Shown here one piece after another: positions 7,687-59,723 of a stretch of DNA of 64,000 bases (position 1 is the first letter of the stretch; each line of letters opens with the position of its first letter). The notes below the pieces were generated by a model that saw only the letters and a program-made list of their open reading frames with translations, had not been told where the DNA came from and searched no databases. Location: positions 22,998,745-23,062,744 of the forward strand of contig CM055895.1 of assembly GCA_029582155.1 (NCBI GenBank), given 5' to 3'. The position numbers were made by a program, and so were the translations under genes. The DNA comes from Panopea generosa. Its lineage: Eukaryota > Mollusca > Bivalvia > Adapedonta > Hiatellidae.

Positions 7687-7740
7687 ATGTACATGGAAAT
7701 GGAGATTTTTAATAAATGGAGAAGGATTTGCCTTTTTCTG
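7687..7740 (+). CDS. DSL-mucin gene exon 1: start and first half of signal peptide
   Basis: Eighteen codons, ending in CTG before a strong GTAAGT donor (phase 0). The encoded WRRICLFL joins VFLLSDVVQG from exon 2 to make a classic signal peptide, with cleavage plausible after residue 28. An in-frame stop at 7651-7653 limits the frame upstream. Three in-frame ATGs (7687, 7693, 7699) compete; the one at 7699 has the best context (G at -3, G at +4). The 5' untranslated region and promoter were not identified. Confidence 0.75.
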
Positions 7741-10700
7741 GTAAGTTGAATTTTGTTTAAATAAAATAAAATAATGATTGCATAATGTGAATTAATACTC
7801 TTGCGGTGTGTTATATTGTCTTGTGTCGTGTCGTGTGTGTATTGTGGTGTTGCTTCATGTGTTATGTCGCGTTGTGGCGTGTCGTGATGCGATGTGCTGG
7901 GTCATACTGTGTCGTGTCGTGTTATGTCGCACTGCACGTCCTGTTTTTTTGCGTTGTGCTGTGTCGTTACAAATTGTGTCGTGTCGTGTTATGTGATGTT
8001 GCTTCGTGTCGTGTCGTGTCTGGTTGTGTTGTGCTGTGTTGTGTCGTGTTATGTCGCATTGTGTCGTGTCTTGTTGCATGTGCTGTGTCATACTGTGTTG
8101 TGTCGCAGTGTTTCAGGTCCTTTCGTTTAGTAGTTTTGAGACATCGTCTTTGCTTATTTGGCTATGGGAGGCCCATTAGTGTGGTCAATGTCAACATTTT
8201 AAATTTTAACCTTTACAACGGAACGTTCATGTTTTCTTTTTTCATTTTTCAACTCATGATTATTGTATTTAGCGATATATCAATATTTTGCATTCACATG
8301 TTTCACTACTTGCATATTTGAAAGCGTTTAAGAGAGAAAATAATTTCATTATTCTCACAGTGTAATCTATAAACGTTATTTAAATGTTGAATGTTATGTT
8401 ATACTATATAAATGGAAACCTCTCCTTTCAGCCCCGTTCCCTCAATGGTAAAGGTGGCATATGCAGTTTGAAATGTTCAAACATTTTTTAAAAACCTTTT
8501 TATAATCTTGTCTGTAAATATGTGTATGAGCATAGTCGTCACTGCCTCTCGGGTATCGATGAGTTTAGACAGAAACGATATGCTGACACGATGCACCGGT
8601 AACAATTTAACGGTGCATCGATAACAAATACAACGGTGCATCGATAACAAATACAACGGTGCATCGATAACAAATATAACGATGCATCGATAACAAATAC
8701 AACGGTGCATCGATAACAAATACAACGGTGCATCTATAACAAATACAACGGTGCATCGATGACAAATACAACGGTGCATCGATAACAAATATAACGGTGC
8801 ATCGATAACAAATACAACGGTGCATCGATAACAAATATAACGGTGCATCGATAACAAATATAACGGTGCATCGATAACAAATACAACAGTGCATCGATAA
8901 CAAATACAACGGTGCATCGATAACAAATATAACGGTGCATCGATAACAAATACAACAGTGCATCGAAAACAAATATACCGGTGCATCGATAACAAATACA
9001 ACGGTGCATTGATAACAAATATAACGTCACATCGATAGCAAATATAACGGTGCATCGATAACAAATACAACGGTGCATCGATAACAAATATAACGGTGCA
9101 TCTATAACAAATACAACGGTGCATCGATAACAAATATAACGTGACATCGATAGCAAATATAACGGTGCATCGATAGCAAATATAACGGTGCATCGATAAC
9201 AAATATAACGTCGCATCGATAGCAAGTATAACGGTGCATCGATAACAAATATAACGTCGCATCGATAGCAAATATAACGGTGCATCGATAACAAATATAA
9301 CGATGCATCGATAACAAATATAACGGTGCATCGATAACAAATATAACGTCGCATCGATAGCAAATATAACGGTGCATCGATAACAAATATAACGGTACAG
9401 TGTTACCGGTGCTTTTCACCCAGATTGTACACCATAGATGACGACGTTGGAGACAACTGCAATACGTTTTTTACTGTTAGGTATATTCGGTCGTGATGAA
9501 TTCGTTTGTTTTTTTACGGGTGTTTCGATTAATATTATATGACTCGCCATTGTTTTAACAGGTATTTCTCCTATCTGACGTAGTTCAGGGTCTGGTAACT
9601 GTCGAGGTAGGACTCCATGAGTTTACTTACTTATCCAAAGAAGACTGCGATAACATTTTCGGCAGTTTCAAGTGCGATCCCTACTTCAAAGTTTGCATAC
9701 AGACTCCTTTCCTGTCGTAAGTAACCTTCTATACATGCAGAGACAACACTAGCTACGAGATACATTTTCTGTGCTTAATTTAAAGGGACACATGGCCATG
9801 ATGAAATTAATTGCATTTGATTATTTTTTATTATAGTTTAACGCCATTTTCGACACAGTTCACGTTATATATAAATATGGCATATCCAGCTTTATTGGCG
9901 AAGAAATACCTCATAATGAATCTGAGTAGAACCACTGTCCTTCCACAAGTAACTCGCAATCTTTCTCAAACAAAGTTTTTGGAGCGAGCGGAACTTTAAC
10001 CTACGACCTTAGCGGTGAAAGGTAAGTGATCTTAGTGCCTTAGACCACTCGGCCACAGCGGACTCTTCATTTAATTATAAATCACGGCTATGAATAAAAT
10101 CAATCTTAACATCTATAAAGTAAAAGCATATGTATATATTAAAGAGACACATTATTAAATGCTCTGCTGTCGTCCGTCGCGTGCACCATGTATGATAACA
10201 CGTGGCGTGTTAAATAAAATTCAAAGTTCTGTATATAAGTGTTAACAAGTTAAACAAATTGTAATATATCTTAATTTTATATATATAGGTGTGGCAAAAG
10301 TCAAGTCAAAACCTCCAGTGCCAGCAACAAGAACAAGTTGTCCGACATTATTCATAGCAAGGAGATTAAACCGAATCCAATCCAGTTTCAACTATCGAAG
10401 CTGAATGTACGTATACTAAATGTCTGACAGCTCCGGATCTAGCTGGTCCTAGGGTATAAAAGCCCGCATGGGCTCATATCAAATTGCATTGCTTTAGTTT
10501 ATACTAATGTTCGATTTCAAAGTAAGCTCAGAGGTATCAGTTTGCATACTACTAGATTGCTGTTCAAACAATTATTGGCATTTTTTTTCCAAAAGTGTTT
10601 GTAATATGCAGTTTGAAAAAAAAGAGTTAAACTCCAACTGACAAAAGTTTGAAATTCGTGAGAGATGCACTCTATACACATGGATCTGTGTTAGCCTAGT

Positions 10701-13700
10701 GTAGCGTTGTAATTTGATAGTCTCCTCTTACAAATATTTACCACCCTGGCAGTAAAAGTTGGGTGTTTAAAGATAAATGTAAACAAAAATGTTCTAATTT
10801 TGACAATTAGTCGAGACAAAACAGAAATATTGATTTTTAAGGGAGAACATCGATGTATATTTAGTCAATACATCTAGTACTGCCAAAACAGAAGCAAGCA
10901 TGGATACTCTGCAACTTCTCATACACATAAAATAGTGTCATAAAACGTTCAGCATTAGGTATTTGACACACATCAGTTTTAAGTCAAGTGTAAACATAAT
11001 TTTTTTTTTAAAAATTTGAAATTTGCCCACTAAGCCATCCTTTTATAAAAGTGAAATTAGTTTTTAAGCGATTTTCGAAAATGATTTTTTTATTGATCAT
11101 TAAACATTTTGGTGACCTGATATTTAATTTCTGTATTTTCCGCCATAAATTGTATTCTCAAAATAAAAAAATAATAAAAAACATGCACACCAAACAGTAG
11201 GTCATATTTTAAAGGAAATAAAGTGTTTTACATACATCATCAGCATTTGGGTAGGTTTCCTAAAATAGGGGGTTATTACTTTGCATACAATTTTTTATTA
11301 CATTGGTTTTAAATGTCTTTTGAATAAACATATTTTTTATGATTTTTTTATGTATTTTAACATGACTAAATGTTATTACCACCGCCACCACCACCACCAC
11401 CACCACCACCAACAACGATAAGGTGAAGAAGAAGGAGAAGAAGAAGAAGAGCAACAGCAACAGCAACAGCCACAGCAGCAGCAACAACAACAAAAGCAAC
11501 AACAACAGCAACAACAAATACTATAACAACAACAACAACAACAACAAATACTATAACAACAACAACAACCACCATTACAACAAGAAATACTATAACAACA
11601 AAAATAAAAACAACAACAATTAAAATAACAACAATAAAAACACCACTACCACCAACAACAACACGTTTTACGGCTTGATAGACTGGAAGCTTGTTGTCAA
11701 TTAACAAGTATAGCACTTGTTTTACAAACTACAACATGTATTTTACTTCCTCTGCAGGCAAACATGTCGGTGACTGTAGAGATATGGAATGATAATCCAT
11801 TTCGTGATGACCATCTAGATACGGCTACATGGACATATACTGGATCCGATTCATTCAACAGGTCAGGCATCAAAATGGTTGGGAAACTTCACAAAGCAAG
11901 GTACGGTATCACAATAACACAACATATTAAAAAGTGAGATCTCACTCCTACCTACTGGGTTTAACTTGACATACAAATGTAGCCTAGCATATGCAACATA
12001 AGACGTTAACAGGGATGAATGTAGTCTAGTATAAGCACCATGAGACGTTGTCGGGGATAAATGTAGCCTAGTATGAGGAACGTAAGACGTTGGCAGGGGT
12101 GAATGTAGTCTAGTTTAAGTAACATGAGACGTTGACAGGGATGAATGAAGTGTAGTTTAAGCAACATGAGACGTTGGCAGGGATGAATGTAGTCTAGTTT
12201 AAGCAACATGAAACGTTGACAGGGATGAATGTAGTCTAGTATGAGCAACATAAGACGTTGGCAGGGATGAATGTAGTCTAGTTTAAGCAACATGAGACGT
12301 TGGCAGGGATGAATGCAGTCTAGTTTTAGCAACATGAAACGTTGACAGGGATGAATGTAGCCTAGTATGAGCAACATAAGACGTTGGCAGGGGTAAATGT
12401 AGCCTAGTATAAGCACCATAAGACGTTGACAGGGATGAATGTAGTCTAGTATGAGCAACATAAGACGTTGGCAGGGATGACTGTAGTGTAGTTTAAGCAA
12501 CATAAAACGTTGACAGGGATGAATGTAGCCTAGTATGAGCAACATAAGACGTTGGCAGGGGTGAATGTTGTGTAGTTTAAGCAACATAAGACGTTGACAG
12601 GGATGAATGTAGCCTAGTATGAGCAACATAAGACGTTGGCAGGGGTGAATGTAGTGTAGTTTAAGCAACATAAGACGTTGACAGGGATGAATGTAGTCTA
12701 GTTTAAGCAACATGAGACATTGACAGGGATGAATGTAGCCTAGTATGAGCAACATAAGACGTTGGCAGGGGTAAATGTAGCCTAGTATAAGCACCATAAG
12801 ACGTTGACAGGGATGAATGTAACGTAGTTTAAGCAACATGATACGTTGACAGGGGTGAATGTAGCGTAGTATTAGCACCATGACACATTGACAGGGATGA
12901 ATGTAGTCTAGAATAAGCAACATTAGACGTTGACAGGGGTGAATGTTGCATAGTATAAGCACCATGAGACGTTGACAAGGATAAATGTAGCCTAAAAACG
13001 TTGACAGGGATGAATGTAGCCTAGTATGAGCACCATGAGACGTTGGCAGTGGTGAATGTAGCACAGTACAAGCAACACGAGACGTTGACAGGGCTGAATG
13101 TAGCGAAGTAGAAGCAACCTGATACGTTGACAGGGATGGATGTTGCGTAGTACAAGCCACATGAGACGTTGACAAGGATGAATGTAGCCTATTATAAGCA
13201 ACATGAGACGTTGACGGGGGTTAATGTAGTCTAGTATAAACAACATGAGACGTTGACAGGGGTAAATGTAGCCTAGTATAAGCACCATGAGACGTTGACA
13301 AGGGTGAATATAGTGTAGTATAAGCAACATAAGACGTTGACAGGGGTGAATGTAGCCTAGTACAAGCAACATGAGACGTTGACTGGGATGAATGTAGCGT
13401 AGTATAAGCAACATGAGACGTTGACAGGGGTGAATGTAGTCTAGTACAAGCAACTTGAGACGTTGACTAGGATGAATGTAGCGTAGTATAAGCAACATGA
13501 GACGTTGACAGGGGTGAATGTAGTCTAGTACAAGCAACTTGAGACGTTGACTAGGATGAATGTAGCCTAGTATAAGCAACATGGGACGTTGACAGGGGTG
13601 AATGTAGTCTAGTACAAGCAACTTGAGACTTTGACTAGGATGAATGTAGCGTAGTATAAGCAACATGAGACGTTGGCAGGGGTGAATGAAGCCTAGTACA

Positions 13701-16700
13701 AGCAACATGAGACGTTGACAGGGGTGAATGTAGTCTAGTACAAGCAACTTGAGACTTTGACTAGGATGAATGTAGCCTAGTATAAGCAACATGGGACGTT
13801 GACAGGGGTGAATGTAGTCTAGTACAAGCAACTTGAGACTTTGACTAGGATGAATGAAGCCTAGTATAAGCAACATGGGACGTTGACAGGGGTGAATGTA
13901 GTCTAGTACAAGCAACTTGAGACTTTGACTAGGATGAATGTAGCGTAGTATAAGCAACATGAGACGTTGGCAGGGGTGAATGAAGCCTAGTATAAGCAAC
14001 ATGAGACGTTGACAGGGGTAAATGTAGCACAGCTAAATAAACCTGAAACAATGACATGTTTGAATGTAGCGCTACATAAAAAACCTGAGGTGAATATAGC
14101 ATTACTCAAGGAAGGGACCCCTGGCGTTGATCACTTTCATTTCCCCAAAACGAGACAACATAAATGGTTTCTTGTGAATGTGGATTGGTTGGAACACATT
14201 TAGGAACAGGCGCTTTGCATATTTCTGATATATGTTAAAACTATCTGTTTATTATTCAGTGTAACAATAAGTATCACCACCAAATGCGAGGAGAATAACT
14301 ACGGTCAATTATGTTCTGTACACTGCATTCCAAATGTACACAGTACATGCAACAGAAACGGCACTCGGATATGCAAAACCGGTGAGTTCAATTATTGATG
14401 AGTTTTATTAATTTTTTGGAAATAATGTATTTTGTTGATACCTCTTGTGTCCTCCGTTATAGTGGCAGTTGTTGTCAGATTCTAATCTTTCATCGCATTA
14501 TTTTTATCACCTTTATTGTTTTACTTATTACAAAGTTATATTTATATTGAATAATTATTTTATTCCATATATGTAAGTGTAGAGCTGATCGCCTATTACA
14601 GATGTTACCACGTGACCGTACAATATGTAGAAGTTCATAGGATCCAATAAAATATTTCTTGTTATACAGTTAAAAATTCAAGATGGCGATTAAAATAAAA
14701 CGGTATAAACTTAGAACAAATTTCAACAATTAAAACAAACAACCGACAAAATGTTCCGCATGACGATCGATACTTTGAGATAATACGAATAGCTGTCACT
14801 GCAATTTCTTGTCTGACGCTTTGAACTTACAGCTTATTTACTTAAAAAGGGTCTTGACTTTTCTTTACTGTTTTGATGTATTATTCAGGTGTAGAATAAA
14901 AAGATTATTTTACAGTATTTTGTACAATATGGGAATATAGCATATGCCCATATCAAATCCGCAATTCTTATTGGTCAAAAGGGGTCACATGAAAAGTCCG
15001 CTCAAAGTGACATTGACCGCTGTTGAGGTCTATATAGGCATGCAATTTTCATACAAAAGTGTAATTTTCACGAATTTGAAAAATAGTACCGTTATAAACA
15101 AAGGGACGTCATTCACACGATCGTCTGGTGCGAAACGGAAAGTAAACAGATGAAAAAACGATTTTTTTTAACCATGAATGAAACTGACTTAAAAACTCTG
15201 GTTGAAAATACGAATTCAAAGGCAACACTGAAATTCGCCTTATAGTATAAATATTACCAATATGATATGATAATTATAGATTTTGCTTAGGTGAATATAT
15301 AGTTCTTCGACCTCGGTCAATATCACTCTTTTCAGGTCCATAGAACTACATATTCACCTCAGTCGAAGTCAATAATTGTATGATATTGTACTCGAACGTA
15401 TTGTGAGGAAAATCATATGGTTTTCATCACAATACTTACTTGTAAAATATATTACTATAATGTACAAAATACTGTCAAATAACATTATAATATATCGTTG
15501 AGGTTAAAATGGACTATGTTGTTGTTGTATGGTGTTTAGCATCGCTTTCAACAATTCGTCATATCGCGATGGTAATATGGGCCCTGCCACACTGGAGGTA
15601 CATGCCGCCTACACATGGTATGATATTCCAAACGTCACATTATACCGACAACGAGCCGACCAGAGCTAGAAATGTCCTTTAAATGATGAGCACCAAGCGA
15701 GGAAGCTTCTAGTACAATTTATCACAAGTTTTTGTTACAACCCGGCCGAGTTTCGAACCCACGACATTCCAATTGCGAGCCGGACGCTTCACAACTGAAC
15801 CACTGCTGCGGTAATAAAGTGGGCGATATCAGATGTGGTATGGTTATAATGTATTGGATGCTGAGATATTAAAGTTTTAACATTTTCTTCCACATTCAAG
15901 GGTTCACGGGGAAGAGTTGCGATCCTGTTCAAACTTCAGTTTCAACCAAGATGTCTACAATAAGTACAACTGCAGCACATAAAACAAATCGAAAAACAAA
16001 ATCAACGCACACAACAAATACAATGACAACTTCCCCAATTATTAAAACGACTTCGTCTCCAACGACCAATAAACCAACAACCGTCACGCAGTCACATATG
16101 TCTACCACAAACAAACAATCAACACGAAAACCCCACAAACCCACAACTTTACCCGTGCCTACCACGAAGTCAACACACACAACTAATGACACTACACTTG
16201 TACCCCTTTCAACAAAATTTTCAACACGAAAACCACACAAACCCACAACTTTACCTCTGCCTACCACGAAGTCAAAACACACAACTAAAGACATTACAAT
16301 TGTACCGCTTTCAACAAAAACTTCAACACGAAAACCCCACAAACCCACAACTTTACCACTGCCTACTACGAAGTCAACACACACAACCCAAAAAACTACA
16401 AGTGTGTCTCTGTCAACAAAAAGTTCAACACGAAAACCCCACAAACCCACAACTTTACCCCTGCCTACCACGAAGTCAACACACACCACCCAAAAAACTA
16501 CAAGAGTGTCCCTGTCAACAAAAACTTCTACACGAAAACCCCACAAACCCACAACTTTACCACTGCCTACCACGAAGTCAACACACACACACCAAAAATC
16601 TACAAGTCTACCTCTGTCAACAAAAGCTTCAACACGAAAACCCCACAAATCCACAACTTTACCCCTGCCTACCACGAAGTCAACACACACAACCCAAAAT

Positions 16701-19700
16701 ACTACAAGTGTACCTCTGTCAACAAAAACTTCAACACGAAAACCCCACAAATCCACAACTTTACCCTTGCCTACCACGAAGTCAACACACACAACCCAAA
16801 AAACTACAATTGTACCTCTTTCAACAAAAACTTCAACACAAAAAACCCACAAACCCACAACTTTACCCCTGCCTACCACGAAGTCAACACACACAACCCA
16901 AAATACTACAAGTGTACCTCTTTCAACAAAAACTTCAACACGAAAACCCCACAAACCCACAACTTTACCCCTGCCTACCACGAAGTCAGCACACACAATC
17001 CATAAAACTACAATTGCACCTCTTTCAACAAAAACTTCAACACAAAAAACCCACAAACCCACAACTTTACCCCTGCCTACTACGAAGTCAGCACATACAA
17101 CCCAAAATATTACAAGTGTACCTCTGTCAACAAAAACTTCAACACGAAAACCCCACAAATCCACAACTTTACCCCTGCCTACCACGAAGTCAACACATAC
17201 AACCCAAAAAACTACAATTGCACCTCCTTCAACAAAAACTTCAACACAAAAAAACCACAAACCCACAACTTTACCCCTGCCTACCACGAAGTCAACACAT
17301 ACAACCAAAAAAACTACAATTGCACCTCCTTCAACAAAAACTTCAACACAAAAACCCCACAAACTCACAACTTTACCCCTGCCTACCACGAATTCAACAC
17401 ACACAACCCAAAAAACTATAATTGTACCGTCAACAAAAATATCAACACAAAAACCCCACAAACCCACAACATTACCCCTGCCCACCATGACCCCAACACA
17501 CACAACCCAAAAAACTAAAACTTTACCTGTAAAAACGACTAAATTTACACAGAAAACATACAAACCAACTTCACATCTATCAACTACAAACTTTTCACAC
17601 AAAGTGCACAGACATACAAGTTTACCTACACCAATCACAAATTCATCAAAAAAAGTTCACCAATCCTCAGTGACAACTCTTTCATCTCAACCGACCACAA
17701 GAATAACACGGTCATCGCATCCACAGACAATGTCCATAACTGCACACAAGTCAACATCAATATCCAATGTAACCAAAATGTCGACGAAGACATCAAGCAC
17801 TGTTTCACTGAACCCTAGCACACAATCAACAACACTTCAAACTAAAAATTCATCTCCCAAACATGAAATAACAAAGAAAACAAAAGGGACGCCAAAGCCG
17901 TTTAGCAAATCGTCTACAGTCCCTGTGCGTTCATCTTCAGCTTCTGCAACTTTGTCAACCAATTCATTTACACAGTCGTCAATACCGACACCTCGAACAT
18001 CAGTTTCTTCATCAAATAATACAAAGCCAAATACACCATCAATAGTGACAATAAACTCATCTTCACAACCAATGGTCAAATCTTCTATAAAACCAACACA
18101 AAGTCCAACAAAATCAACTCGAAATTCACATTCGTCAACATATACACCCTCAGCAACATCTACAGAGCGTTCGTCAAAGTTAAGTTCACGTCATACAATG
18201 TCATCAAAAACAGCAACCTTTTCAAAAATAACAAGTTTACTACCGAGCAAAAACCTCACTGGTACAACTGGTAAACCAGTTACAAAACCTGGTGATAACA
18301 CACCGACAGTAAATGTTCATAGCACCATGAAACATGAAACAGAGCCAACAAATAATGTTGAAGCAGGCACCACCTCGTCCAACGTACCATCATCAACTGC
18401 AGTGTCCGGAAAAACAAATGGATGTGTTGGGAATGCAAATGTCCATGGTTCAAAAGAAGCAAAGGTATGCTTATCTATCGCATGACAATATCATATTCAT
18501 ATGTGAATTTTCACACTGTTGTCACATTTCATTATAGACAGTATGGCATACTTTTGAAATGTAATTAATATATGTTGGGTTGGAGACCTAGTTTGTGTAA
18601 TAAAACATGTCATGTGTCATTGTCATCGTCATTAATAATCCATATCGTCAAATTTCAAAAAAACTATTAGTGGATACTTTGTCAACAAATCTCCACGCGA
18701 TGTGATACTTAAATACAGCCTATGTACCATTCAATACCTAAATTAAACTAAATCATATCTAAAACAAAGACAATTTACTAATTGCCAAGATGTTATGAAG
18801 TGTCTTCATTCAATATGTAAATTCAAATTGATAATTTGATCTCATGACATCGAACTCCATGCACCCTTTCTCTTGATGCTTCATTCATTTAAAGGTACAC
18901 TTTAACAGGGAGTGTGTTTATGGTTGTTTAGATCTGCAGCGTGGGAGAGGCCTTAATCTTGTTGAAGATATATTTATAACGGTGACCATATCAGTTGGCA
19001 ATCAATCTCATTAATAATTATTGATCAACATTAGTTAAGTTAAGATCAAGGTTGCCGTGCCGTCATCTATGGCAAACTATGTGAATAAGTGTTTCCATCG
19101 CGACAAAGTGGTTAAATGCCTATGTTTATATCGTTGATGCATTGGGTTCAAGAATAGCTCACGTGCAATATTTTAAATTTGAAATTGTGAAAGGGAATGG
19201 TCCTGTTTAAATTCATATCATTTGCTGATGTATTCATCCACCAGTAAAACCGATTTTAGTAAAGTTTTTTTTATCTTAAGCATACCTAAGCAATTGCTAT
19301 CCAGTTAAGTTCAGTACTAAATTAATTTCAGTGTAAATTGAACAAAACAACCATCAAATATACACGTCCGTACATCCCATGATGAGTTCAATAAGTGAGA
19401 TGTTCTTTCGATACAATGTGAACGAAGTTTGGTTGGGACAACCCCAAAAAAAAAAAATAAAATCTTGAATCTTCTCCTGGCTGCTACATACTTTGAATAA
19501 TCAGTTTGTTTTGTTATTTATTCTTCTTTTAAATCAAGGAGCTCATTTAGTGTTTTCTGGGGGGAAAGAAGAGATTATTTCGTGCCCTTCGTGTACGGTT
19601 GACCTGACCTACTTAAAAACAAAGTCTACTATTTTTACTTACTTAGAATGCGAGTTGTTTTTATAGTGGATCCTTTTGTCCAAGTGTGTATTTGTTTAAC

Positions 19701-22700
19701 ACGATTTGATAATTTCAATTATGTTATAACTATAGAGTTGGGTTATACCGATGGTGCTAGGCGTGGTAGGTGGAGTGTTGGCTCTGGCGTTTCTGACAGG
19801 AATGGTAGTTGTATTCAAACGCCGGTAAGTTTCCCTATAGCAATATGGAAGTTGGTGAAATATAAGTTTAATAGTTACGTTAGCTCGACTGGCCAAAGGC
19901 TAACAGGGCTTATGTCATGGTTAATTGTCCGTCGTCCGTTCGTTAACCTTTTTCTTGTAAATAGCATCTTTATTACGTAGGTGGTGTACTTGCTTTGTGT
20001 AGGTGGTGTAATCGCCCTATATAGGTGGTGTAATTGCTGTGTGTAGGTGGTGTAATCGCCCTGTGTATGTGGTGTACTTGCTGTGTGTAGGTGGTGTAAT
20101 CGCCCTGTGTATGTGGTGTTCTTGCTGTGTGTAGGTGGTGTACTCGCCCTGTGTATGTAGTGTACTTGCTGTGTGTAGGTGGTGTACTCGCCCTGTCTAT
20201 GTGGTGTACTTGCTGTGTGTAGGTGGTGTAATCGCCCTGTGTATATGGTGTACTTGCTGTGTGTAGGAGGTGTAATCGCCCTGTGTTGTTGGTGTACTTG
20301 CTGTGTGTAGGTGGTGTAATCGCTCTGTGTTGGTGGTGTACTTGCTGTGTGTAGGTGATGTAATCGCCCTGTGTATGTGGTGTACTTGCCGTGTGCATGT
20401 GGTGTACTTGCTGTTTGTAGGTTGTGTACTCGTCCTTTGTATGTGGTGTACTTGCTCTGTGTAGGTGTTGTAATCGCTCTGTGTAGGTGATGTACTTGCT
20501 GTGTGTAGGTGGTGTAATCGCCCTGTGTATGTGGTGTATTTGCTGTGTGTATGTGGTGTTCTTGCTGTTTGTAGGTGGTGTACTCGCTGTGTGTAGGTGG
20601 TGTATTCGCCCTGTGTAGGTGATGTTCTTGCTGTGTGTAGGTGGTGTAATCGACCTGTGTAAGTGGTGTACTTGCTGTGTGTAGGTGGTGTACTCGCCCT
20701 GTGTAGGTGACGTTCTTGCGGTGTGTAGGTGGTCTAATCGCCCTGTGTTAGTGATGTACTTACTGTGTGTAGGTGGTGTACTCGCCCTGTATAGGTGGTG
20801 TACTTGCCGTGTGTAGGTGGTGTTATCGCCCTGTGTAGGCGGTGTTCTTGCTGTGTGTAGGTGGTGTAATCGCCCTGTGTAGGTGGTGTTCTTGCTGTGT
20901 GTAGGTGGTGTAATCGCCCTGTGTTAGTGGTGTACTTACTGTGTGTAGGTGGTTTACTCGCCCTGTATAGGTGGTGTACTTGCTGTGTGTAGGTGGTGTT
21001 ATCGCCCTGTGTAGGTGGTGTTCTTGCTGTGTGTAGGTGGTGTAATCGCCCTGTCTAAGTGGTGTACTTGCTGTGTGTAGGTGGTGTACTCGCCCTGTGT
21101 AGGTGGTGTACTTGCTGTGTATAGGTGGTGTACTCGCCCTGTGTATGTGGTGTACTTGCTGTGTGCAGGTGGTGTACTTGCTGTTTGTAGGTTGTGTACT
21201 CGTCCTTTGTATGTGGTGTACTTGCTCTGTGTAGGTGGTGTTATTGCTCTGTGTAGGTGGTGTTATCTCCCTGTGTATGTGGTGTTCTTGCTGTGTGTAG
21301 GTGGTGTAATCGCCCTGTGTAAGTGGTGTACTTGCTGTGTGTAGGTGGTGTACTCCCCTGTGTAGGTGGTGTGCTTGCTGTGTATAGGTGTTGTACTCGC
21401 CCTGTGTAGGTGGTGTACTTGCTGTGTATAGGTGTTGTACTCGCCCTGTGTAGGTGGTGTGCTTGCTGTGTATAGGTGGTGTACTCGCCCTGTGTAGGTG
21501 GTGTTCTTGCTGCGACTTGTCTTTGATTATGATTATTGAAATAATTGTGTCCTCATGATGCTGCGTCTTCTGCAGGACATATAGTTTCTTATTTTAATCA
21601 ACGTTTACAATGTTCTTAAAAAACAAAGACATCATCTGCAGTTCATTTGGAGACAAGCATTGGTCATAAACGGTGGAAAGTTTGATATACTGTCTTTTGT
21701 TTAGGCAAATTTTCGAGAGGCAAAGCGTTGAAATAAGAGATACATAATTTGTCAAAAAATTGTTAAATTGCTCTGATTGGATTGCATTCTTTTATATCAA
21801 TATCACATGTAGCGTTATTGTAAATGTATAGTTCATAAAACATGCAAAGAATAGATTGTATTAATCTATTGAACGTTAATAAGTTTCTTGAAAGTTACAC
21901 ATGTAACATAAAAATTAAGTCCAAAGGGATTGAAGGGTTTGAAGAGTCGTTTTACATGTTAAGTTCGACTATCTTAATTTTTTATCTATATATTTTCAGT
22001 TAACTTGGTTAGCACTACTATGTATGATTGTATATTACCTAGCACCGATGTGTATGTACAATTTGTTGCATCCCCACGTTGCTTAATGGAACATATGAAT
22101 AGTGACCCCTCTTTAATACTCTTTGTTGCTTCAACTACATGTCATAAATCAGTGCTACCTACAAAATTCCAGATTACCTCAAAACAGTCGAGTACATATC
22201 CAATAACGTTTACGTGTAGCGCAACTGTTTGGGGTAATCTGGAATTTCATAGGTAGCACTGGTATCTAATGTACATGTATTCGTTGGAGTACCTGTCAAA
22301 ATTGGTTTTATCAATAATCAGCTAAGCGCTTAGCCGAGAGGCCCGATTAACTTGTTTTGCACGTGCGCTCCGTGCAGCGACGGTCGATATCCGTTGGTGT
22401 AATCTGACTGCACTTATTGACCATAAATTAGGCACAATACAAAAAGATCACATAAAATCAAGTCAAATTGCAATGCCAATACTAAATAACGACCAAAGAA
22501 ATCAGGCAATCGGGATGTTGAATGCTGGCTCTACAGTAGCCGAAGTATCCCGTCTGTTCGGCTGCACGAAAAAGACAATTGAGCGTTTGAAAAGACGTTT
22601 CCAGATCAGGGGAAACGTTTGGGACCATCCCCGAAGCGGTCGACCACGTGTGACGACTGCGGCCGATGATCGGTACATCACGGTTCAACACTTCCGTAGC

Positions 22701-25700
22701 CGACGTCTGTCGGCATCAGCAACAGGGCGACGGCATGGAATCAGTGCACAGACAGTTCGGTACAGATTGCGACAAAATGATGACCCGATTCGTCCGTACA
22801 GACCGTACTTTGGCCAAATTTTAACTAGACGTCATCGGACTGCGAGACTCGACTGGTGCCGACGTCACCGGCGTTTCCTACGTGCTGATTGGAGATCAGT
22901 ATTGTTTTCGGACGAGTCTCGATTCAATTTGAATCATGCCGACAGACGTGAGATAATTTACCGTCGTCGGTGGGATCATTACGCTGATGCATGCGTCGTT
23001 GAGAGAGATACCGCTTTGGGGGAGGTTCAGTATTAGTCTGGGGTGGATGTACACAAGACCCGCCTAATTGTTATTTAAGGAAACATCAATGCCCAGACCT
23101 ACGTCATTAATGTTCTTGTACCAGAAGTTGCTCTTTGATTTAGCGCCACGGACCGAACGTCACACTAATGCATGATAACGCCCGTCCCCAAACAGCTGCA
23201 CTTACTCGACGTTTTCTATGCGGATAATAACGTCAATGTTTTAGACTGGCCGGCGAAAAGTCCTGACTCAAATCCCATCGAACAAATATGGGATGAGTTA
23301 GGACACCTTGTAAGAACAAATTATGCAATCAACACGGTGCACGACCTTTCAGCAGTCCAACAGGCTGAATTGGACAATTTTACCTGCGCCGTGCGTACAG
23401 CGTTTCGTCGAGAGCATGTGGCGGAGGATCATGACGTGCATTTGGCAACACGGCAGACACATGAGATATAGAATATTTTACTCGACCAACATCACATTTT
23501 CACTGCAGAAAAATCCCATTATATTGAATTTTAAACTTTCTCGATTACAAGTGCAGATTTATCAAAACCGTTGTTACTTCGGAAATCAACCCCTACGTCA
23601 TATCGGTCCATTTTTTTTCGATTAAACACATATTGCAGCTGCTTCAAATTTTCACAGGACTTCAAGAATAAATTTACTTTACTTAAAAAATTAAATCCGA
23701 ATGTAAATTCATTTTCTTTTAACAAACCCGGTCTCGTTCTATCGCTGAATGGTTTATTTTCAATATCGATCCGGTAAGTAAAGCAAAAACGGTGTTTAAA
23801 TGTAAATGTTCGGCATTAACAGCATATTTTTGTCCAGGCATAGTACCACCATTGCAAAAAGGAAGTGCTTCTAGGGGTAGTCGCATGATGGCGGTTATAA
23901 ATAATCCTCAATTTTTTCTTTAAAAATACATTTTCCTTATTTTAATGCTCATTTTTTTATTTGAATGGCATTATTGATGTATTTTGAACATTTTGATAGC
24001 ATTGTCATGTTTGAATTGTGAATTTAGAAAAAAAAATTGATGCTTTGAAATTGGGGTATGAATACATGATTTCGGAAGTCTACTTTCACTTTGTCACCAG
24101 TGTACACACTGAGCAGAAAAAAAAATCTCTTATATGACACATGACCCCTACTTTTCTCATCATATTTTAATAGTGCAGAGGTTGACAAACAGTAAAATGT
24201 AGGTTTAACTTCTTTCATTTGGGATTCTCTATGAAGGACAAGCCTTCAAACTTTTATTATTTACTATAGAATAAAGAACAAAAATCAATGGTGGGGTTAC
24301 ACCTATAAGAGAGACATGAGTGAAATGGGGGGTGATTTTCCAAAATGTTAATTGTAGGTAAAATAACCTCCTTTTTACACTCTCATAGTCTTAAATGACA
24401 AATTGGAGACTTTTGCTTAAAAAAAACAAAACATTTTGGCAAGTTTATGCCTCAAATTAAGCATATATATGCATATCTACATTAAAATTTCATGAAAAAT
24501 CACAAAGTTTTGAAGATTTTTTATTTTGGATGATTGAAATGTGCAAATTTTAGCATGTACATTGTATTGAATAATGTATTTTGGTAAGATAATGTCTTCA
24601 GTGTATCATGAGACTATTATGATGTAAACATTTTAATGGAATTAGGTAAAAAAAAAATTTTTTTTTGCAAAATTAGTCGAACACATAAAAATTGCATGTC
24701 GGTCAACATCTCGCGCCTCTATATAATGATCATGTAAAAAGTGGTATTTTGACAAAAGTTTCAGTATTTAATGCCTGCAACTTGGCAGTATTACTTCAAA
24801 TTGATAATACTTAGTAAAAAAGAGGTAATTATGAAGTTAAAAAAAAAGAAGTTTCCTTATAGGCATAGTACCACCATTGCAAAAAGGAAGTGCTTCCGTG
24901 GGGTAGTCGCATGATGGCGGTTATAAATAATCCTCATTTCTTCTTCTTTAAAAATGCATTTTCCTTATTTTAATGCTCATTTTTTTTTATTTGAATGGCA
25001 TTATTGATGTATTTTGAACATTTTGATAGCATTGTCATGTTTGAACTGTGAATTTAGAAAAAAAATTGACGCTTGGAAATTTGGGTATGAATACATGGTT
25101 TCGGAAGTCTACTTTCATTTTGTCACCAGTGTACACACTGAGCAGAAAAAAATCTCTTATATGACACATGACACCTACTTTTCTCATCATATTTTGATAG
25201 TGCAGAGGTTGACAAACTGTAAAATGTAGGTTTCATTTCTTTCATTAGGGATTCTCTATGAATGACTAGCATTCAAACTTTTATTATTTACTACAGAATA
25301 AAGAACAAAAATCAATGGTGGGGTAATACCTCCACCAACAATTATGGCAACGGAAGTAGCATGTTCGGATATTCTCGGCTTATTTTTTTTCAAATTGGCC
25401 ACGCCCCAAAGCCCGTCATTCTGATCCGAGTCACTGAGGCGCTTATGGAAAAAAAGCAATAACAGAAATATGTCAGCTAAAAGCGAAAGCGTCTCCGTGA
25501 CTCGAATCGGAAGACGTTAAAAATACAGCGAATGTTAACTAATCAGACACGACCCCGTATTTGCTCCATACGATAATGACGTCATATCCGTTGCCATGTT
25601 GAGGATAAAAAATACGCCGTTTTTTTGGGAACTCAGTGCGACATCTTCTTCAAACGGCCGAGTTATGCATAAACATCGGTACGATATTGAAGATAAATCA

Positions 25701-27014
25701 TTCAGCGATAGAACAAGACCGGGTTTGTTAAAATTGATGGCCTTTTGACTTAGAAATTCTAATTTTGATCGGGGAAGGGGTCAACGTTTGATTCTTTTCT
25801 TGTCTCTTTATATACGCAAGAGGACCCCCACCCCCATCAAACTTTATTATCCACTCCCCAAGCTCCTGTGAATTTTTACACATCCTCTTCGACTTCTAAC
25901 ACGAAAACACTGACAATCATCTGACCATGATATTGAATCAAGTGACTAATTTAAAACAATCTGATTGGAGCAAAAAAAAAATAACGACATCACATGACAA
26001 TAACAACTATTCCAACTATGGATATGTGGATAAGGGCTCAATACGGGGTATTTTACAAAGCGGTTTATATGGGAACTATATAAATAAAATATATTATTAA
26101 TACTTTTTATACGACAGATCATTCTAAAAATGACTTTGCTACATATACATGTATATGGGCGAAAAAGATTCCTCTAATACCCACACGACCGATGGGAACT
26201 GTAAATAGATTCCTCTAATACCCACAAGATCGATGGGAATAATTAATAGATTTCTTGAATACCCACACAGTCGGTGGGAACTATAAATAGATTCCTCTAA
26301 TACCCGCACGACCGACGGGAACTATAAATAGATTGCTCTAATAATACCCACACGATCGATGGGAACAATAAATAGATTCCTTTAATACCCACACAGTCCA
26401 TGGGAACTATGAATAGATTCCTCTAATACCCACACGACCGGTGGAAACTATAAATAGATTCCTTTAATACCCACACGATCGATGGGAACAATAAATAGAT
26501 TCCTTTAATACCCACACAGTCGGTGGGAACTATAAATAGATTCCTCTTATACCTACACGACCGGTGTGAACATAAAATCTTCACATTTTACAAAAATAAG
26601 AACGAAACGAAAAATCATTAAACCCGATTTGACACAACATTCCGACACTATTTAGCAATGACGTTGGTTCTAGGCAAGGCTGACTTTGTCCAAACATATG
26701 CCCTAAAACTGACTGTCCAATAGTATGCGTTCACAGGAAACGAACAACACAGTACTATATACCTAAGGTTCGATGTTGAGAGTTCCGTCACGAATGTTAA
26801 TTTATTTATTATATGATCTTTTCATTACAGACGAAGACCGTCGTCAATCATTTTAGACGACGATATTTTAGCAGACGAATCACGCGTACATATTGGCGGG
26901 AGTCTGCATTTACAGTTGGATCCGATAGCTCACCAAATATCCGACAAGGACCCGGATTTTCTGAGTTATGACAATGCAACGTACGGGACATTAAAGACGG
27001 AATCAGACTCTTAA
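7687..27014 (+). CDS. MNNL-DSL protein with mucin-like stalk, type I membrane (8 exons)
   Basis: Spliced coding sequence: 7687-7740, 9562-9716, 10289-10406, 11758-11900, 14260-14381, 15901-18464, 19736-19824, 26831-27014. That is 3429 nt, or 1142 residues plus TAA. All introns are GT-AG and the phases (0,2,0,2,1,0,2) join without a stop. Layout: signal peptide about 1-28; MNNL-like region about 29-150 with C47, C56, C63, C71 and an NPIQF block at 99-103; DSL domain about 157-204 with six cysteines; Thr/Ser/Pro/Lys-rich stalk about 207-1050; transmembrane helix about 1054-1079; KRRRR at 1080-1084; tail to 1142. MNNL and DSL together define Notch ligands of the Delta/Serrate/LAG-2 type, so a cell-surface ligand or modulator of Notch is inferred. 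EGF repeats are absent, which is unusual, so receptor activation is not assured; it could be an antagonist or do something else. A frame stop at 7651 precedes the start codon. Gene structure is manual, with no transcript support. Confidence 0.85.
7800..8115. repeat. GTGTCGT-type degenerate minisatellite, intron 1
   Basis: Irregular GTGTCGTGTCGTGTTATGTC units give several spurious overlapping frames. It starts 60 bp inside intron 1 of the DSL-mucin gene. Confidence 0.8.
8606..9405. repeat. 23-bp minisatellite, about 35 copies, intron 1
   Basis: The core GGTGCATCGATAACAAATA repeats every 23 bp; variants replace GGTGC by GTCGC or GTCAC. Because 23 is not a multiple of 3, three units form a 23-codon period, which creates long minus-strand frames that are not genes. 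Confidence 0.95.
9562..9716 (+). CDS. DSL-mucin gene exon 2: signal peptide end and MNNL start
   Basis: Acceptor TTTTAACAG, donor GTAAGT, phase 0 in and phase 2 out. Encodes residues 19-69 and part of 70. It contains VEVGLHEF, like the opening strand of Notch-ligand N-termini, then C47, C56 and the stretch CDPYFKVC (C56-C63), which corresponds to the cysteine-aromatic-Val-Cys block of the MNNL family. Confidence 0.82.
9870..10062 (-). mobile_element. SINE with class II tRNA-like head, in intron 2
   Basis: The minus strand reads GTGGCCGAGTGGTCTAAGGC, a Ser/Leu-tRNA-like A box, then a degenerate B box (GGTTAAAGTTCC) and a body with GTGGTTCTACTCAGATTC. Not a functional tRNA gene because the B box is broken. 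Confidence 0.55.
10289..10406 (+). CDS. DSL-mucin gene exon 3: MNNL middle
   Basis: Acceptor TATATATAG, donor GTACGT, phase 2 in and 0 out. Encodes residues 70-109. C71 is the fourth MNNL cysteine, and KPNPIQF at 97-103 matches the conserved Asn-Pro-Ile-x-Phe block of Notch-ligand N-termini. The intervening Ser/Lys/Asn-rich loop (73-95) is probably surface exposed. Confidence 0.8.
11375..11665. repeat. Triplet microsatellites (CCA)n, (AAG)n, (CAA/CAG)n, intron 3
   Basis: A CCA run at 11378-11410 is followed by AAG and then long CAA/CAG runs, ending 95 bp before exon 4. The reading frames through it are low-complexity. Confidence 0.9.
11758..11900 (+). CDS. DSL-mucin gene exon 4: MNNL C2-like end and lead-in to DSL
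   Basis: Acceptor CCTCTGCAG, donor GTACGG, phase 0 in and 2 out. Encodes residues 110-156 and part of 157. MSVTVEIWNDN (112-122) corresponds to the beta strand that follows the NPI block in Notch ligands (consensus like FSLIIEA). The rest links MNNL to the DSL domain. Confidence 0.82.
11985..14035. repeat. 42-bp minisatellite, about 48 copies, filling intron 4
   Basis: The core GACGTTGACAGGGATGAATG repeats every 42 bp with AGTATAAGCAACATGAGAC. It fills 2.05 of the 2.36 kb of intron 4. The period of 14 codons explains the long minus-strand frames. In the second half pairs of units alternate (TTGACTAGG against TTGACAGGG), a higher-order pattern. Confidence 0.95.
14260..14381 (+). CDS. DSL-mucin gene exon 5: DSL domain
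   Basis: Acceptor ATTATTCAG, donor GTGAGT, phase 2 in and 1 out. Encodes residues 157-197. The cysteine spacing C166-x8-C175-x3-C179-x7-C187-x7-C195, closed by C204 in exon 6 (x8), follows the DSL pattern. CEENNYGQLCSVHC aligns with the family core, including the conserved Tyr-Gly. The third loop is shorter than the canonical one, so the Arg-Asp-Asp-x-Phe-Gly segment is missing. Confidence 0.85.
14903..15490. mobile_element. Inverted-repeat element in intron 5 with a second internal hairpin
   Basis: The outer arms ACAGTATTTTGTACAATAT (about 14911) and, inverted, GTACAAAATACTGTC (about 15458) pair. Inner arms of about 55 bp at 15258-15312 and 15330-15394, including AGGTGAATATATAGTTCT, also pair. 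This suggests a small non-autonomous DNA element. Confidence 0.45.
15515..15812 (-). mobile_element. SINE family B, inverted copy in intron 5
   Basis: The reverse strand starts with GCAGCAGTGGTTCAGTTGTG and the B box GGGTTCGAAACTC, then the same body as at 6454-6690 (CTCCAGTGTGGCAG, TTGTTGAAAGCGATGC). It ends 88 bp before exon 6 of the DSL-mucin gene. Confidence 0.75.
15901..18464 (+). CDS. DSL-mucin gene exon 6: DSL end and giant repetitive mucin-like stalk
   Basis: A 2564-nt exon, phase 1 in and 0 out, with acceptor CACATTCAAG and donor GTATGC. It opens with GFTGKSC (C204), completing the DSL domain, then runs 848 residues with almost no cysteine. About 16100-17520 encodes fourteen 34-residue repeats and a degenerate fifteenth, built around STRKPHKPTTLPLPTTKS. 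The remainder to 18464 is non-repetitive Ser/Thr-rich sequence with a few N-glycosylation sequons. Such composition predicts dense O-glycosylation and an extended, stiff stalk, unusually basic because of Lys and His. The reverse strand is also open for 569 codons; that is a by-product of the repeat composition. Confidence 0.88.
16100..17520 (+). repeat. Coding 102-bp minisatellite in exon 6
   Basis: Fourteen full units of 102 bp (34 codons) and a diverged fifteenth, all in frame. Units differ at a few sites (STRK/STQK, KPTT/KSTT, SVPL/IVPL/IAPP), and the variants alternate in the middle of the array. This points to expansion by unequal exchange or slippage. Confidence 0.95.
19736..19824 (+). 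CDS. DSL-mucin gene exon 7: transmembrane helix
   Basis: Acceptor CTATAG, donor GTAAGT, phase 0 in and 2 out. Encodes residues 1053-1081 and part of 1082. WVIPMVLGVVGGVLALAF and the following residues to F1079 form a single hydrophobic helix with small-residue GxxxG-like spacing, ended by KRR. An alternative acceptor two bases downstream would give a hydrophilic frame; the phase match and the helix favour this one. Confidence 0.82.
19978..21515. repeat. 22-bp minisatellite with 44-bp higher-order unit, intron 7
   Basis: Alternating half-units GGTGGTGTAATCGCCCTGTG and GGTGGTGTACTTGCTGTGTG, each 22 bp, give a 44-bp period for about 35 periods. It starts 150 bp after the transmembrane exon. Confidence 0.95.
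22151..22261. repeat. Short imperfect inverted repeat (hairpin, MITE-like)
   Basis: AGTGCTACCTACAAAATTCC and the following bases to about 22190 pair with 22220-22261, arms of about 40 bp with a few mismatches around a 29-bp loop. It lies 200 bp before the Tc1 relic but does not match its far end. Confidence 0.6.
22473..23471 (+). pseudogene. Broken Tc1/mariner transposase
   Basis: The first frame (22473-23036) carries an N-terminal helix-turn-helix (residues about 5-45), the GRPRV hinge at about 56-60, a second HTH and VLFSDESRF, with the first catalytic Asp at residue 147. After a frameshift the second Asp lies in MHDNARPQTA at about 23168-23197. After another shift comes DWPAKSPDSNPIEQIWDE, with the catalytic Glu in PIEQIW. 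At least two frameshifts and several stops make it inactive. Terminal inverted repeats were not found. It sits in intron 7 of the DSL-mucin gene. Confidence 0.85.
23838..24310 (+). repeat. Dispersed repeat R1, copy b
   Basis: Starts with CATAGTACCACCATTGCAAA and includes a block with GTATGAATACATGATTTCGG and TTTGTCACCAGTGTACACAC. Nearly identical to 24863-25330; related to 4700-5125 and, inverted, to 37740-38065. Confidence 0.75.
24863..25330 (+). repeat. Dispersed repeat R1, copy c
   Basis: Second copy in the same orientation, 1025 bp downstream of copy b, with the same start and only scattered differences. About 550 bp of AT-rich sequence with no match separates the two. Confidence 0.75.
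26165..26575. repeat. 41-bp minisatellite, about ten copies, intron 7
   Basis: The core ATTCCTCTAATACCCACACG with CGATGGGAACTATAAATAG repeats every 41 bp, ending 255 bp before exon 8. Confidence 0.9.
26831..27014 (+). CDS. DSL-mucin gene exon 8: cytoplasmic tail and stop
   Basis: Acceptor TTTTCATTACAG; phase 2 in, ending at TAA. Completes the basic stop-transfer cluster KRRRR and gives a 59-residue acidic tail. The tail has lysines at 1121 and 1137, NATY at 1130-1133 and YGTL at 1133-1136, which fits the YxxPhi endocytic sorting signal. The C-terminus (ESDS) is not a class I PDZ ligand. The previous exon is 7.0 kb upstream. Confidence 0.8.
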
Positions 27015-42439: not shown

Positions 42440-44884
42440 CACCTGGGAAAAAAAGGATCCTTTTCCTCACAGCTTGGAAAAATAAGATCTCATTTGTCAC
42501 ACATGTCGAGCATATATGTCACAGGTCCTGGGAAATTTATGATCGAAGTCGGTTTTGTATGTACCATGGAATCACATTCCTCACAGGTCAAAAATTGAAT
42601 GATTTTTTTAGCAACAAATTACCTTTTTAAAACTGAGTCACATTTGTCACAGATTGCTATTGTCGGTATTGCAAACATATTTTGTTGCTTTACATGTATG
42701 CGTTTATATTATAGTTATAAAGAATCATCGATTATGTTGTTGTTGTTGTTGTTTTTGTTTTTTGCTGGTGCTGCTGTTAGTTCTCGACTTGAATGATGCT
42801 GTAAAAGTGGAAATAGTAATCATTCTTGTTGGCAGCGTAATAGTAAGTGTAAAAGTAGTGGTATATGACAGTATGATTGTTGTTGTGAATTGTATAGGCA
42901 TTGTTTTGCTTGCTATCGATAAATGGTGGTTGATGTAGGCGCAGACAAGGTAGTTGTTGGCTTTTTTTTGTTGTTATTATAGCAGTCGTTATATTCGTAT
43001 ATAGTCTATACCATTTCATATTAGCTCCATTGAAATAGAAAGCTGGCAGTTTCTTTAATCACTCTCGAGTCCGCTTCCTAGGTCAAACTCATCATTACTG
43101 AGTGCTCATGAGAAAAGTTCTATGAGAACGTTCACCTACCGAGGATAGAACCCGGGACCTCTACATCTGAGCGCCTGTTACGGTATAGATAAAGTTAAGA
43201 TGTGATAAATGAAATAATTTTTATTGTTGTTTGTTTTATTGTTGGTGATATACGTGCCGTTGTTGGGCGCAGTACTTCCGCAATAATTGGAGGTGGCACT
43301 TGTTTGTAATGGTACTCGTAGGCGTAATAGTGGTAGTTGTTGTGGTGTTTGATCGCTAAATAGTTTCCGCTCACCTGAGTACGAAATGCCAAATGTGAAA
43401 TATTGTGATCAACATATATCCGAAGTATGTTCGTCGTAAATATTTTTTAAACATATCGTCTTGTCTGAACCCATTTATATTTGGTAAATATGTAACGATT
43501 TTCAAATCTGGCACCGCCCCAGAGGTCAAACGTTTCATTAAATTTTATATTTGTATATGAAAATGTTCTTGTCTAAAACTGCAATGCCCGTACCTTTGAT
43601 ATGTGGTATGTAGCAATACAGTATATGTAGTGATCTTTTACCGACACTGTTCAAATTAGGTCCGATCCCTTTGATTATAGAGTGGGAAATTCAGACGCCC
43701 TGTGCTTAAAAGAAATGCTGGAAATAAGTAATCATGAATAGGATTTGCAAAGATAGACTGGTTCCTGAACTAAATCAAGACTTTCCGATGATGTATACGG
43801 GTTACTTATGTGTTTTTAAAAACAGACGCGGGAATGTGTGCAATCCGTCCATCCCCGCAACGTATTGTCAACAAATCTACAATTTTACTATTTACAAATT
43901 TACTATTTATATATTTTTCTACTGTAATTATTAATAAATCATAATACTGTTGGTATGTTTTAAAAGAGCAGACTATGTACTTTGTACGTTAATAAGAAAT
44001 ATCCTCATTGACCGAGACTCATACATATCTGAAATTATAAGTAGGGATTTATGACTGTACATGTTGTTTGCAAAATTGAACATTCTTAGTATAGAATACT
44101 ATTTGAAATGGGAGAGCTTTTCAATAAGTCACCGGTTTTCATAGACAGATGTTATGGAAAAAGTATTTCCAACGTTTTAATTTCGTGCAAGCGGTAATAA
44201 TTGCAGTGCCAACAGAGCTTTGGTTTAAAGACAGTTCTGTTCGGAGCTTTCCTGATATGGTCGGGAACAAAAGATAGTGTAACAATCCACCCTCAGTGTC
44301 ATTATCCCACCAAGATAAATAAAGAAAACATTTAAGATTCAAGAATTGGTGATGTTGTTGTTGTTGTAAGAAAATTAGTTTTATATTAGGTGTAGTTTTA
44401 AGAATATGTGTTGTTGTTGTTGTTTTTTCAATGGCGTAGTAGTGGTTATTGTAGGTGTTTGGCGTTGGGGGACATATAATATAAACTTCTTAGCTGGCCC
44501 AAATATAACATACAACTAGTATAAGGCTTTCGTAAGAATAAATAACTCATTACATTAATTATGCATTTTCAAAGAAGTGCATATAGTTTTATTTTATTGT
44601 GTACATGTCAGTCGGTCGGTAGGTGGTCGTCACGTCGGTCGGTCAGCCGGTATACCAAAGCCTGTCCGATTGATAAAATATGTCTTTAACGTCAGTTAAG
44701 CCGGGCAGTTATAATGTCCCTGCAACACCCTCAAATTTTTTTCTCGAATCAGTTCAATATACGACTACTACTATTACGTATGCTACTACTGCTGCTGCTG
44801 CTGCAATTACCGCCGCCGCTATCACAACCACTACCAACAACTGACGATCCTCCTCCTTATACTACTACGACCCCTTCTTATAAA

Positions 44885-44933
<49 letters not shown>

Positions 44934-45177
44934 ATTATTATTATTATTACTTGTATCATACTATTATTGTTATTAGTGTTTAGTTCCTTTTATTATTATA
45001 TCTTTATTATCAAATTTACAAACAGCAATGTCATCGACAAAATCTGTGAAGAATATGATTCTCTTTTTTACTACTATTTTGGTCAATCATATATGTCACA
45101 GTTTGAAACTGTGAGGAATAGGATCCTATTTTCCCCAGACTTGTGAGGAATATGATCTGGGAATAATAAGGTCCTAC
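42440..45177 (+). mobile_element. Second copy of the 2.8-kb TIR element, left end truncated
   Basis: Colinear with 56902-59723 over its whole length with few substitutions and small indels, in the same orientation. It lacks about the first 43 bp of the left inverted repeat, and no target duplication is visible. The right end is intact, finishing at GGTCCTAC. Confidence 0.8.
44765..44950. repeat. Triplet microsatellites inside the TIR element copy 1
   Basis: CTG/TAC runs, then (TTG)n at 44887-44932 and (TTA)n. The same runs occur at 59285-59495 in copy 2 with different lengths. Confidence 0.85.
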
Positions 45178-59304: not shown

Positions 59305-59343
<39 letters not shown>

Positions 59344-59426
59344 AATTACCGCCGCCGCCATCACAACCACTACCAACTACTGACGATCCTCCTCCTTATA
59401 CTACTACTACTACCCCTTCTTAGAAA

Positions 59427-59478
<52 letters not shown>

Positions 59479-59723
59479 ATTATTATTATTATTACTTGTA
59501 TCATACTATTATTGTTATTAGTGTTTAGTTCCTTTTATTATTATATTTTTTATTATCAAATTTACAAACAGCAATGTCATCGACAAAATCTGTGAAGAAT
59601 ATGATTCTCTTGTTTACTACCATTTTGGTCAATCATATATGTCACAGTTTGAAACTGTGAGGAATAGGATCCTATTTTTCCCAGACCTGTGAGGAATATG
59701 ATCTGGGAATAATAAGGTCCTAC
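56902..59723 (+). mobile_element. 2.8-kb TIR element, complete copy with 8-bp target duplication (hAT-like)
   Basis: The left end GCAGGACCTTATTTTTCCCA pairs with the inverted right end GTAGGACCTTATTATTCCCA, and the inverted repeat continues for about 75 bp. AGAGCTGT occurs directly outside both ends (56894-56901 and 59724-59731), a perfect 8-bp duplication as made by hAT-superfamily transposases. No transposase frame is present: the open frames are TTG/TGC runs. It is therefore non-autonomous. Inside are microsatellites and a minus-strand tRNA-like patch near 57645-57680. The closest relative is 42440-45177. Confidence 0.8.
59285..59495. repeat. Triplet microsatellites inside the TIR element copy 2
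   Basis: TGC, TTG and ATT runs at the same place as in copy 1 but longer in the TGC and TTG parts, the usual length instability. Confidence 0.85.

Follow-up and report, generated by a model that had tools for sequence, protein, structure and literature searches.

A DSL gene of the bivalve Panopea generosa with a mucin-like stalk in place of EGF repeats, and its stalked relatives in the same genome

Transmembrane mucins have one transmembrane helix and, outside the cell, a long region of Thr/Ser/Pro tandem repeats, and the Notch ligands Delta and Jagged join an MNNL domain, a DSL domain and an array of EGF repeats to a membrane anchor (MNNL-DSL-EGFn-TM). The gene described here lies in a stretch of 64,000 nucleotides of Panopea generosa chromosome C2 (C2:22,998,745-23,062,744, referred to as the window) and has features of both. 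Its predicted product shares with Delta and Jagged the order of signal peptide, MNNL-like C2 domain, DSL domain and transmembrane helix, and differs from them in an 847-residue stalk, in the lack of any EGF family above its cut-off and of a Pfam MNNL match, and in a DSL contact loop that is four residues shorter. With the transmembrane mucins it shares the Thr/Ser/Pro tandem-repeat ectodomain and the helix, to which it adds a Notch-ligand head; among the Pfam matches that the whole protein gave with E values of 1 or less, domains typical of mucins, for example SEA or VWD, were absent.

DSL genes without EGF repeats are already on record. He et al. 2021 (PMC8166818) described such genes, which, according to the part of the report available to us, are limited to bivalves and multicopy. 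The window gene, which likewise has a DSL domain without EGF repeats and is multicopy, was compared with these genes by description and probably belongs to the same class, which is the likely parent of the stalked family reported here and may overlap with it. In the same part of that report, the EGF-less genes were not described as MNNL-bearing, stalked, membrane-anchored, loop-lacking or split within the DSL domain. No other report on EGF-less DSL genes was recognized by title or start of abstract among the matches listed.

Gene model and domain layout

The gene model was assembled one exon at a time under the constraints of splice sites and phase. Eight plus-strand exons (7687-27014, Table 1), bounded by GT-AG and agreeing in phase, can be spliced into one uninterrupted frame for a predicted protein of 1142 residues, and at this level the eight-exon model of the preliminary description was confirmed. 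Exon 3 of the model was the top-scoring of the phase-compatible candidates. Exon 7, which holds the helix, was the best in its gap and the sole one to score at least 17 among 43 hydrophobic, phase-compatible plus-strand candidates in the window. When the phase limit was removed, a shorter acceptor scored slightly higher but was out of phase with exon 6; the acceptor used in the model was the only one of the top two in phase with that exon.

The predicted protein runs from a signal-peptide-like start (judged by eye) through a divergent MNNL domain, a DSL domain, the stalk and one transmembrane helix to a short tail, in the ligand-like order proposed earlier. The last DSL cysteine (residue 204) leads into a stalk of 847 residues (206-1052), in agreement with the roughly 850 residues claimed before, that is composed of 28% Thr, 15% Ser, 12% Lys and 11% Pro (Thr, Ser and Pro together 54%) and contains a single Cys. 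The stalk is strongly basic (123 Lys/Arg versus 9 Asp/Glu), and its composition suggests that it may be rigid and O-glycosylated. It is followed by the helix SWVIPMVLGVVGGVLALAFLTGMVVVF, four arginines and the tail. A single transmembrane helix was indicated by hydropathy and by the exon scan, and such an exon is also present in two of the relatives introduced below (B and A2). In the full-length protein, DSL was the sole Pfam family above its cut-off (E 9.7e-7) and no EGF family reached its own, consistent with the proposal of a mucin-like stalk instead of EGF repeats.

DSL and MNNL in the head

When the head was searched, Pfam DSL (PF01414) matched residues 166-205 (E 1.1e-7, 32.5 bits against a cut-off of 24.2), and from its sequence we regard the identity of this domain as certain. 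A Pfam match to MNNL had been expected in addition, and that expectation failed: no MNNL match was obtained on the window protein or on its relatives A1 and A2, and relative B matched at the right place below the cut-off (E 0.011). In the Pfam, alignment, Jagged-1 profile and genome searches, the heads of B, A1 and A2 were used without the residues that straddle exon junctions.

The claim that the N-terminal part is MNNL-like was confirmed in part by profile comparison within the genome. A profile of the exon-2 region from four family members was compared by hhalign with the start of MNNL in four further genes of this genome (the presumed Delta, the presumed Jagged, C7 and C8) and gave 95% (E 3e-8); the value was 93% when the whole MNNL part was used, and 1.4% in the one control, in which the exon-2 profile was set against a DSL profile. 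A profile of the four heads aligned to human Jagged-1 (4cbz) over profile positions 26-173, from MNNL through DSL (E 4.6e-12). At E up to 1 this profile found 14 PDB sequences, 12 of them Notch ligands and 2 the angiopoietin-1 receptor (E 0.25-0.27). Much of the Jagged-1 score comes from the DSL domain, because the MNNL part alone found no Jagged or Delta in PDB; the six sequences that it did match there (E 0.24-0.6; nucleoporin p58, TIFA) were taken as chance. The N-terminal head is thus likely to be of MNNL ancestry, the domain having diverged greatly. In the head alignment of the four assembled genes 34 of 189 columns are invariant, A1 and A2 being close copies, so that the alignment represents nearer three independent sequences.

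Stalked relatives and the Notch-contact loop

The genome (1.47 billion bases in 39 contigs) was searched with the head of the window gene, and relatives were found on the same chromosome. The same exon chain was present in three more assembled genes, A1, A2 and B, the first two being a recent tandem pair, with 29-32% identity to the window head. Exons 3 and 5 of A1 and A2 (118 and 122 nt) match those of the window gene exactly in length, and exon 5 has 122 nt in all four assembled genes. The stalks of A1 and A2 are Asn/Thr-rich, with 701 and 604 residues and 63 and 44 N-x-S/T sites, respectively. The transmembrane exon was found in A2, and none was found for A1 between its stalk and the first exons of A2; A1, the upstream copy, may be secreted, truncated or spliced to a shared downstream exon. 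In B, as in the window gene, the helix is preceded by SWV. A further gene, D, was read at its DSL-stalk junction. Behind that junction the frame stays open for at least 1965 codons, passes into Thr/Pro repeats after its first part, and had not closed where the stretch read ended. A sixth, candidate locus (C2:22.9296-22.9324 Mb) matches the MNNL and DSL exons of A2. We count at least five predicted stalked DSL genes in this genome. The position of the stalk is kept and its chemistry differs, being Thr/Ser/Lys in the window gene, Thr/Ser in B, Asn/Thr in A1 and A2 and Thr/Pro in D, a pattern suggesting that sequence matters less than spacing and glycan load.

The exons of the relatives were sought first in the phases of the window gene and then again without any phase limit. 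With phases left free, the model exon ranked first in 15 of 18 cases (one tied) and second in the other three (exon 7 of the window gene and exon 5 of A1 and of A2), where the better-scoring rivals had another incoming phase and did not fit the preceding exon. The shared phase pattern is therefore not merely imposed. In a large protein collection, the window head (E 0.001) yielded 431 word-sharing candidates and the head of B (E 0.01) yielded 296, none of which passed; the collection may hold few animals, and this null result says little on other bivalves.

The receptor-binding face of Jagged-1 includes F199, R201, R203, D205 and F207 (PMC3415683), and Phe207Ala is used as a control substitution with reduced activation (PMC5538765), as stated in the available parts of these two papers. 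Nine DSL domains were aligned, and the placement of the Jagged-1 numbers on the alignment is our own. The window gene and B keep none of the five contact residues, and A1, A2 and D keep one each (F199). None of the five stalked DSL domains keeps R201 or R203, and all five have a four-residue gap at D205/F207. The presumed Jagged keeps four of the five residues, the presumed Delta three, C7 two and C9 one, and none of these has the gap, which is peculiar to the stalked genes among the nine domains compared. As aligned, the canonical Notch contact is missing, not just mutated, in the five predicted stalked genes read; the architecture, the family and the loss of this loop can be read from the gene models directly. 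The earlier suggestion that the DSL head is displayed to Notch, or is a decoy that binds it, was not supported at this site. Since the loop is missing in all five, we consider a tall surface protein that acts without Notch more probable than a Notch agonist or decoy.

Ordinary ligand-type exons occur elsewhere in the genome. At the C4 locus, MNNL (E 9e-31) and DSL (E 2e-16) matches lie 30 kb apart, and the C3 locus has both domains; these loci, named by their look and nearness, are presumed to be this genome's Delta and Jagged. The genome also holds LNR matches, as in Notch receptors. Canonical signalling therefore need not depend on the window gene. A big-defensin search gave no match in this genome or in the 14 controls and so carries no information.

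The window gene differs from the presumed Delta and Jagged in having an intron within the DSL domain. Of 13 genes or units examined, 8 have a DSL exon that stops in phase 1 immediately ahead of the final Gly-aromatic loop, namely the window gene, A1, A2, B, D, C7, C9 (with an atypical donor) and C10 (next exon unseen). There is no split, and the frame runs on, in the presumed Delta, the presumed Jagged, the C19 gene and two C8 units. The next exons of C7 and C9 encode the last DSL piece and then EGF repeats; behind the DSL intron, where these related genes hold EGF exons, the window gene has one large stalk exon. The simplest history would be that a split-DSL group arose, and that in one of its branches the EGF exons were lost and a repeat-rich exon came to stand in their place.

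A very large gene or cluster at C8:20,795,001-20,845,000 also combines an MNNL exon at its start (Pfam E 2.9e-8) with Thr-rich stretches and half-DSL units (C8:20.80-20.84 Mb), and differs from the window gene in its repeating modules, as opposed to one head and one stalk. The modules comprise a half-DSL, an unnamed domain (FIPSEWKGNYTC...) that matched no Pfam family at E 0.01, and an EGF-like piece, most of them with a Thr/Pro stretch. As in the window gene, the Thr stretches begin right after the last-cysteine loop at the start of an exon.

The introns of the window gene contain tandem arrays, several of them overlain by long antisense frames. Such frames over the stalk and the arrays were taken, on visual inspection, for by-products of simple repeats. 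The transposase remnant in the last intron scored 27.4 bits with HTH_Tnp_Tc3_2 (below the cut-off of 31.5) and 38.4 bits with HTH_28 (above the cut-off). Near-identical frames on both strands (EVYIICPPTPNTYNNHYY...) at about 44139-45146 and 58650-59595 of the window are probably copies of one repeat.

Table 1. Positions of the exons and repeats of the window gene, of mobile elements in the window and of the stalked relatives. Positions without a chromosome are those of the window.
Feature	Position	Strand	Remarks
Exon 1	7687..7740	+	Start codon, beginning of signal peptide (MYMEMEIFNKWRRICLFL); donor GTAAGT in phase 0
Exon 2	9562..9716	+	Rest of signal peptide, then N-terminal half of divergent MNNL with the motif C-D-P-Y-F-K-V-C
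Exon 3	10289..10406	+	MNNL middle; 118 nt, as in A1 and A2 (112 nt in B)
Exon 4	11758..11900	+	C-terminal half of MNNL (SVTVEIWND...); resembles exon 4 of relatives
Exon 5	14260..14381	+	First five DSL cysteines; ends in phase 1 within DSL
Exon 6	15901..18464	+	Last DSL cysteine (C204) and 847-residue Thr/Ser/Pro/Lys stalk
Exon 7	19736..19824	+	Transmembrane helix and first basic residues of tail; counterparts in B and A2
Exon 8	26831..27014	+	Cytoplasmic tail, about 60-61 residues, and stop; contains SYDNATYGTL
Stalk tandem repeat	16119..17528	+	102-bp (34-aa) unit, 13.9 copies; thirteenth copy one residue out of register
Intron tandem array	8588-9396		23-bp unit
Intron tandem array	11976-14028		42-bp unit
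Intron tandem array	19977-21512		44-bp unit
Intron tandem array	26162-26576		41-bp unit
Tc1/mariner-like transposase remnant	22326..23033	+	Lies within the long last intron, outside the coding sequence
Retroelement reverse transcriptase fragment	46903-48225		RVT_1, E 3.9e-14
A1, A2	C2:51.57-51.60 Mb	minus	Tandem; exons 2, 3, 4, 5 and stalk exon in same order
B	C2:69.91 Mb		Same exon chain; exon 3 112 nt, exon 5 122 nt; stalk of about 270 residues, Thr/Ser
D	C2:22,906,701-22,913,700		92 kb upstream of window; split DSL exon, same-phase acceptor, then open frame

Interpretation and alternatives

On balance we favour, with modest confidence, a single-pass membrane protein in which a head derived from a Notch ligand (MNNL/C2-like plus DSL) is carried on a stalk rich in potential glycosylation sites and works independently of Notch. 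The stalk would lift the small disulphide-bonded head well above the glycocalyx, to a height of up to about 200 nm if it is extended and 0.25 nm is assumed for each of its 847 residues, and the helix and short tail would anchor the protein in the membrane. Since stalks at the same position differ in sequence and in glycan-site chemistry, the stalk may serve as a spacer and coat. The partner of the head would not be the canonical Notch EGF11-12 site but possibly a lipid, a glycan or a protein, carried by another cell or by a microbe; such a partner is plausible because the C2 domain of ligands has been reported, in the available part of the source, to bind lipids (PMC5538765). Glycosylation, stalk extension, the partner and Notch independence are inferred; the layout is most likely that of a tall recognition or adhesion molecule.

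Several observations weigh against this reading. Poor contact residues are not peculiar to the stalked genes, as C7 and C9, which bear EGF repeats, keep few of them, and the presumed Delta itself keeps only three; the comparison covers five Jagged-1 residues, and divergent DSL domains might bind Notch through another surface. The stalk of the window gene may be drifting, the changes in its repeat being spread almost equally among the three codon positions (23/22/31 in the 12 copies that are in register), with a weak bias over 13 copies, one of them out of register (26/28/35). Between the heads of A1 and A2 the dN/dS ratio was 0.58 (10 synonymous against 23 nonsynonymous changes); the shortage of the latter was not significant (P = 0.13), so selection on the head is undemonstrated. 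The tails of the window gene and B showed no significant similarity, as 574 of 2000 shuffles reached their score, and a conserved tail motif (DNATY in the window gene, DNPLY in B) was dropped as evidence on that account.

The order of MNNL, DSL and membrane anchor matches Delta and Jagged and would fit a genuine Notch ligand, the head of which reaches Notch at long range and activates it with the stalk as a lever replacing the EGF repeats. We consider this distinctly unlikely: none of the five Jagged-1 contact residues is kept, the D205/F207 loop is missing, no EGF family reached its cut-off and hence there is no DOS pair, and ordinary ligand exons are found elsewhere in the genome. A decoy or cis-inhibitor, in which the head touches Notch and a flexible stalk cannot transmit the pulling force, would agree with a ligand-derived head that is anchored in the membrane and has no EGF array, but the absence of the contact loop from all five stalked genes makes us just as doubtful of it.

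The protein may instead be a mucin first, that is, a glycocalyx, mucus or matrix protein that works through its stalk and keeps the MNNL-DSL head as a leftover cap. Very long stalks of unlike sequence, a strongly basic window stalk and stalk repeats under little constraint all speak for it; a useless cap, however, would not need the cysteines, the exon phases and the invariant columns that the heads of the four genes, two of them a recent pair, have kept, and we rate this reading as unlikely, less severely than a Notch ligand or decoy. Least probable is that the gene is decayed or an artefact of the exon model. The introns are full of tandem arrays and hold the transposase remnant, no convincing counterpart of exon 1 was found in the region searched in the relatives, and exon 8, also without homology support, is the weakest part of the model; but the frame is intact over eight exons, and three other assembled genes show the same exon chain.

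A wider proposal, which we put forward tentatively as possible though short of probable, is that surface recognition receptors evolved out of Notch ligands: the gripping loop would have been lost and the EGF array traded for interchangeable glycan stalks (O-glycan Thr/Ser/Pro or Thr/Pro, N-glycan Asn/Thr), with stalk length and glycan type, and not sequence, being tuned. DSL genes are readily taken for Notch ligands, and the genes described here would advise caution against counting each DSL gene in molluscan genomes as one. If our favoured reading of a Notch-independent surface protein is true, a head kept without the EGF array or the Notch-contact loop would mean that the ligand head can be reused, and the family would offer a natural test of which ligand parts Notch activation requires, be it the head, the EGF array or the mechanical link.

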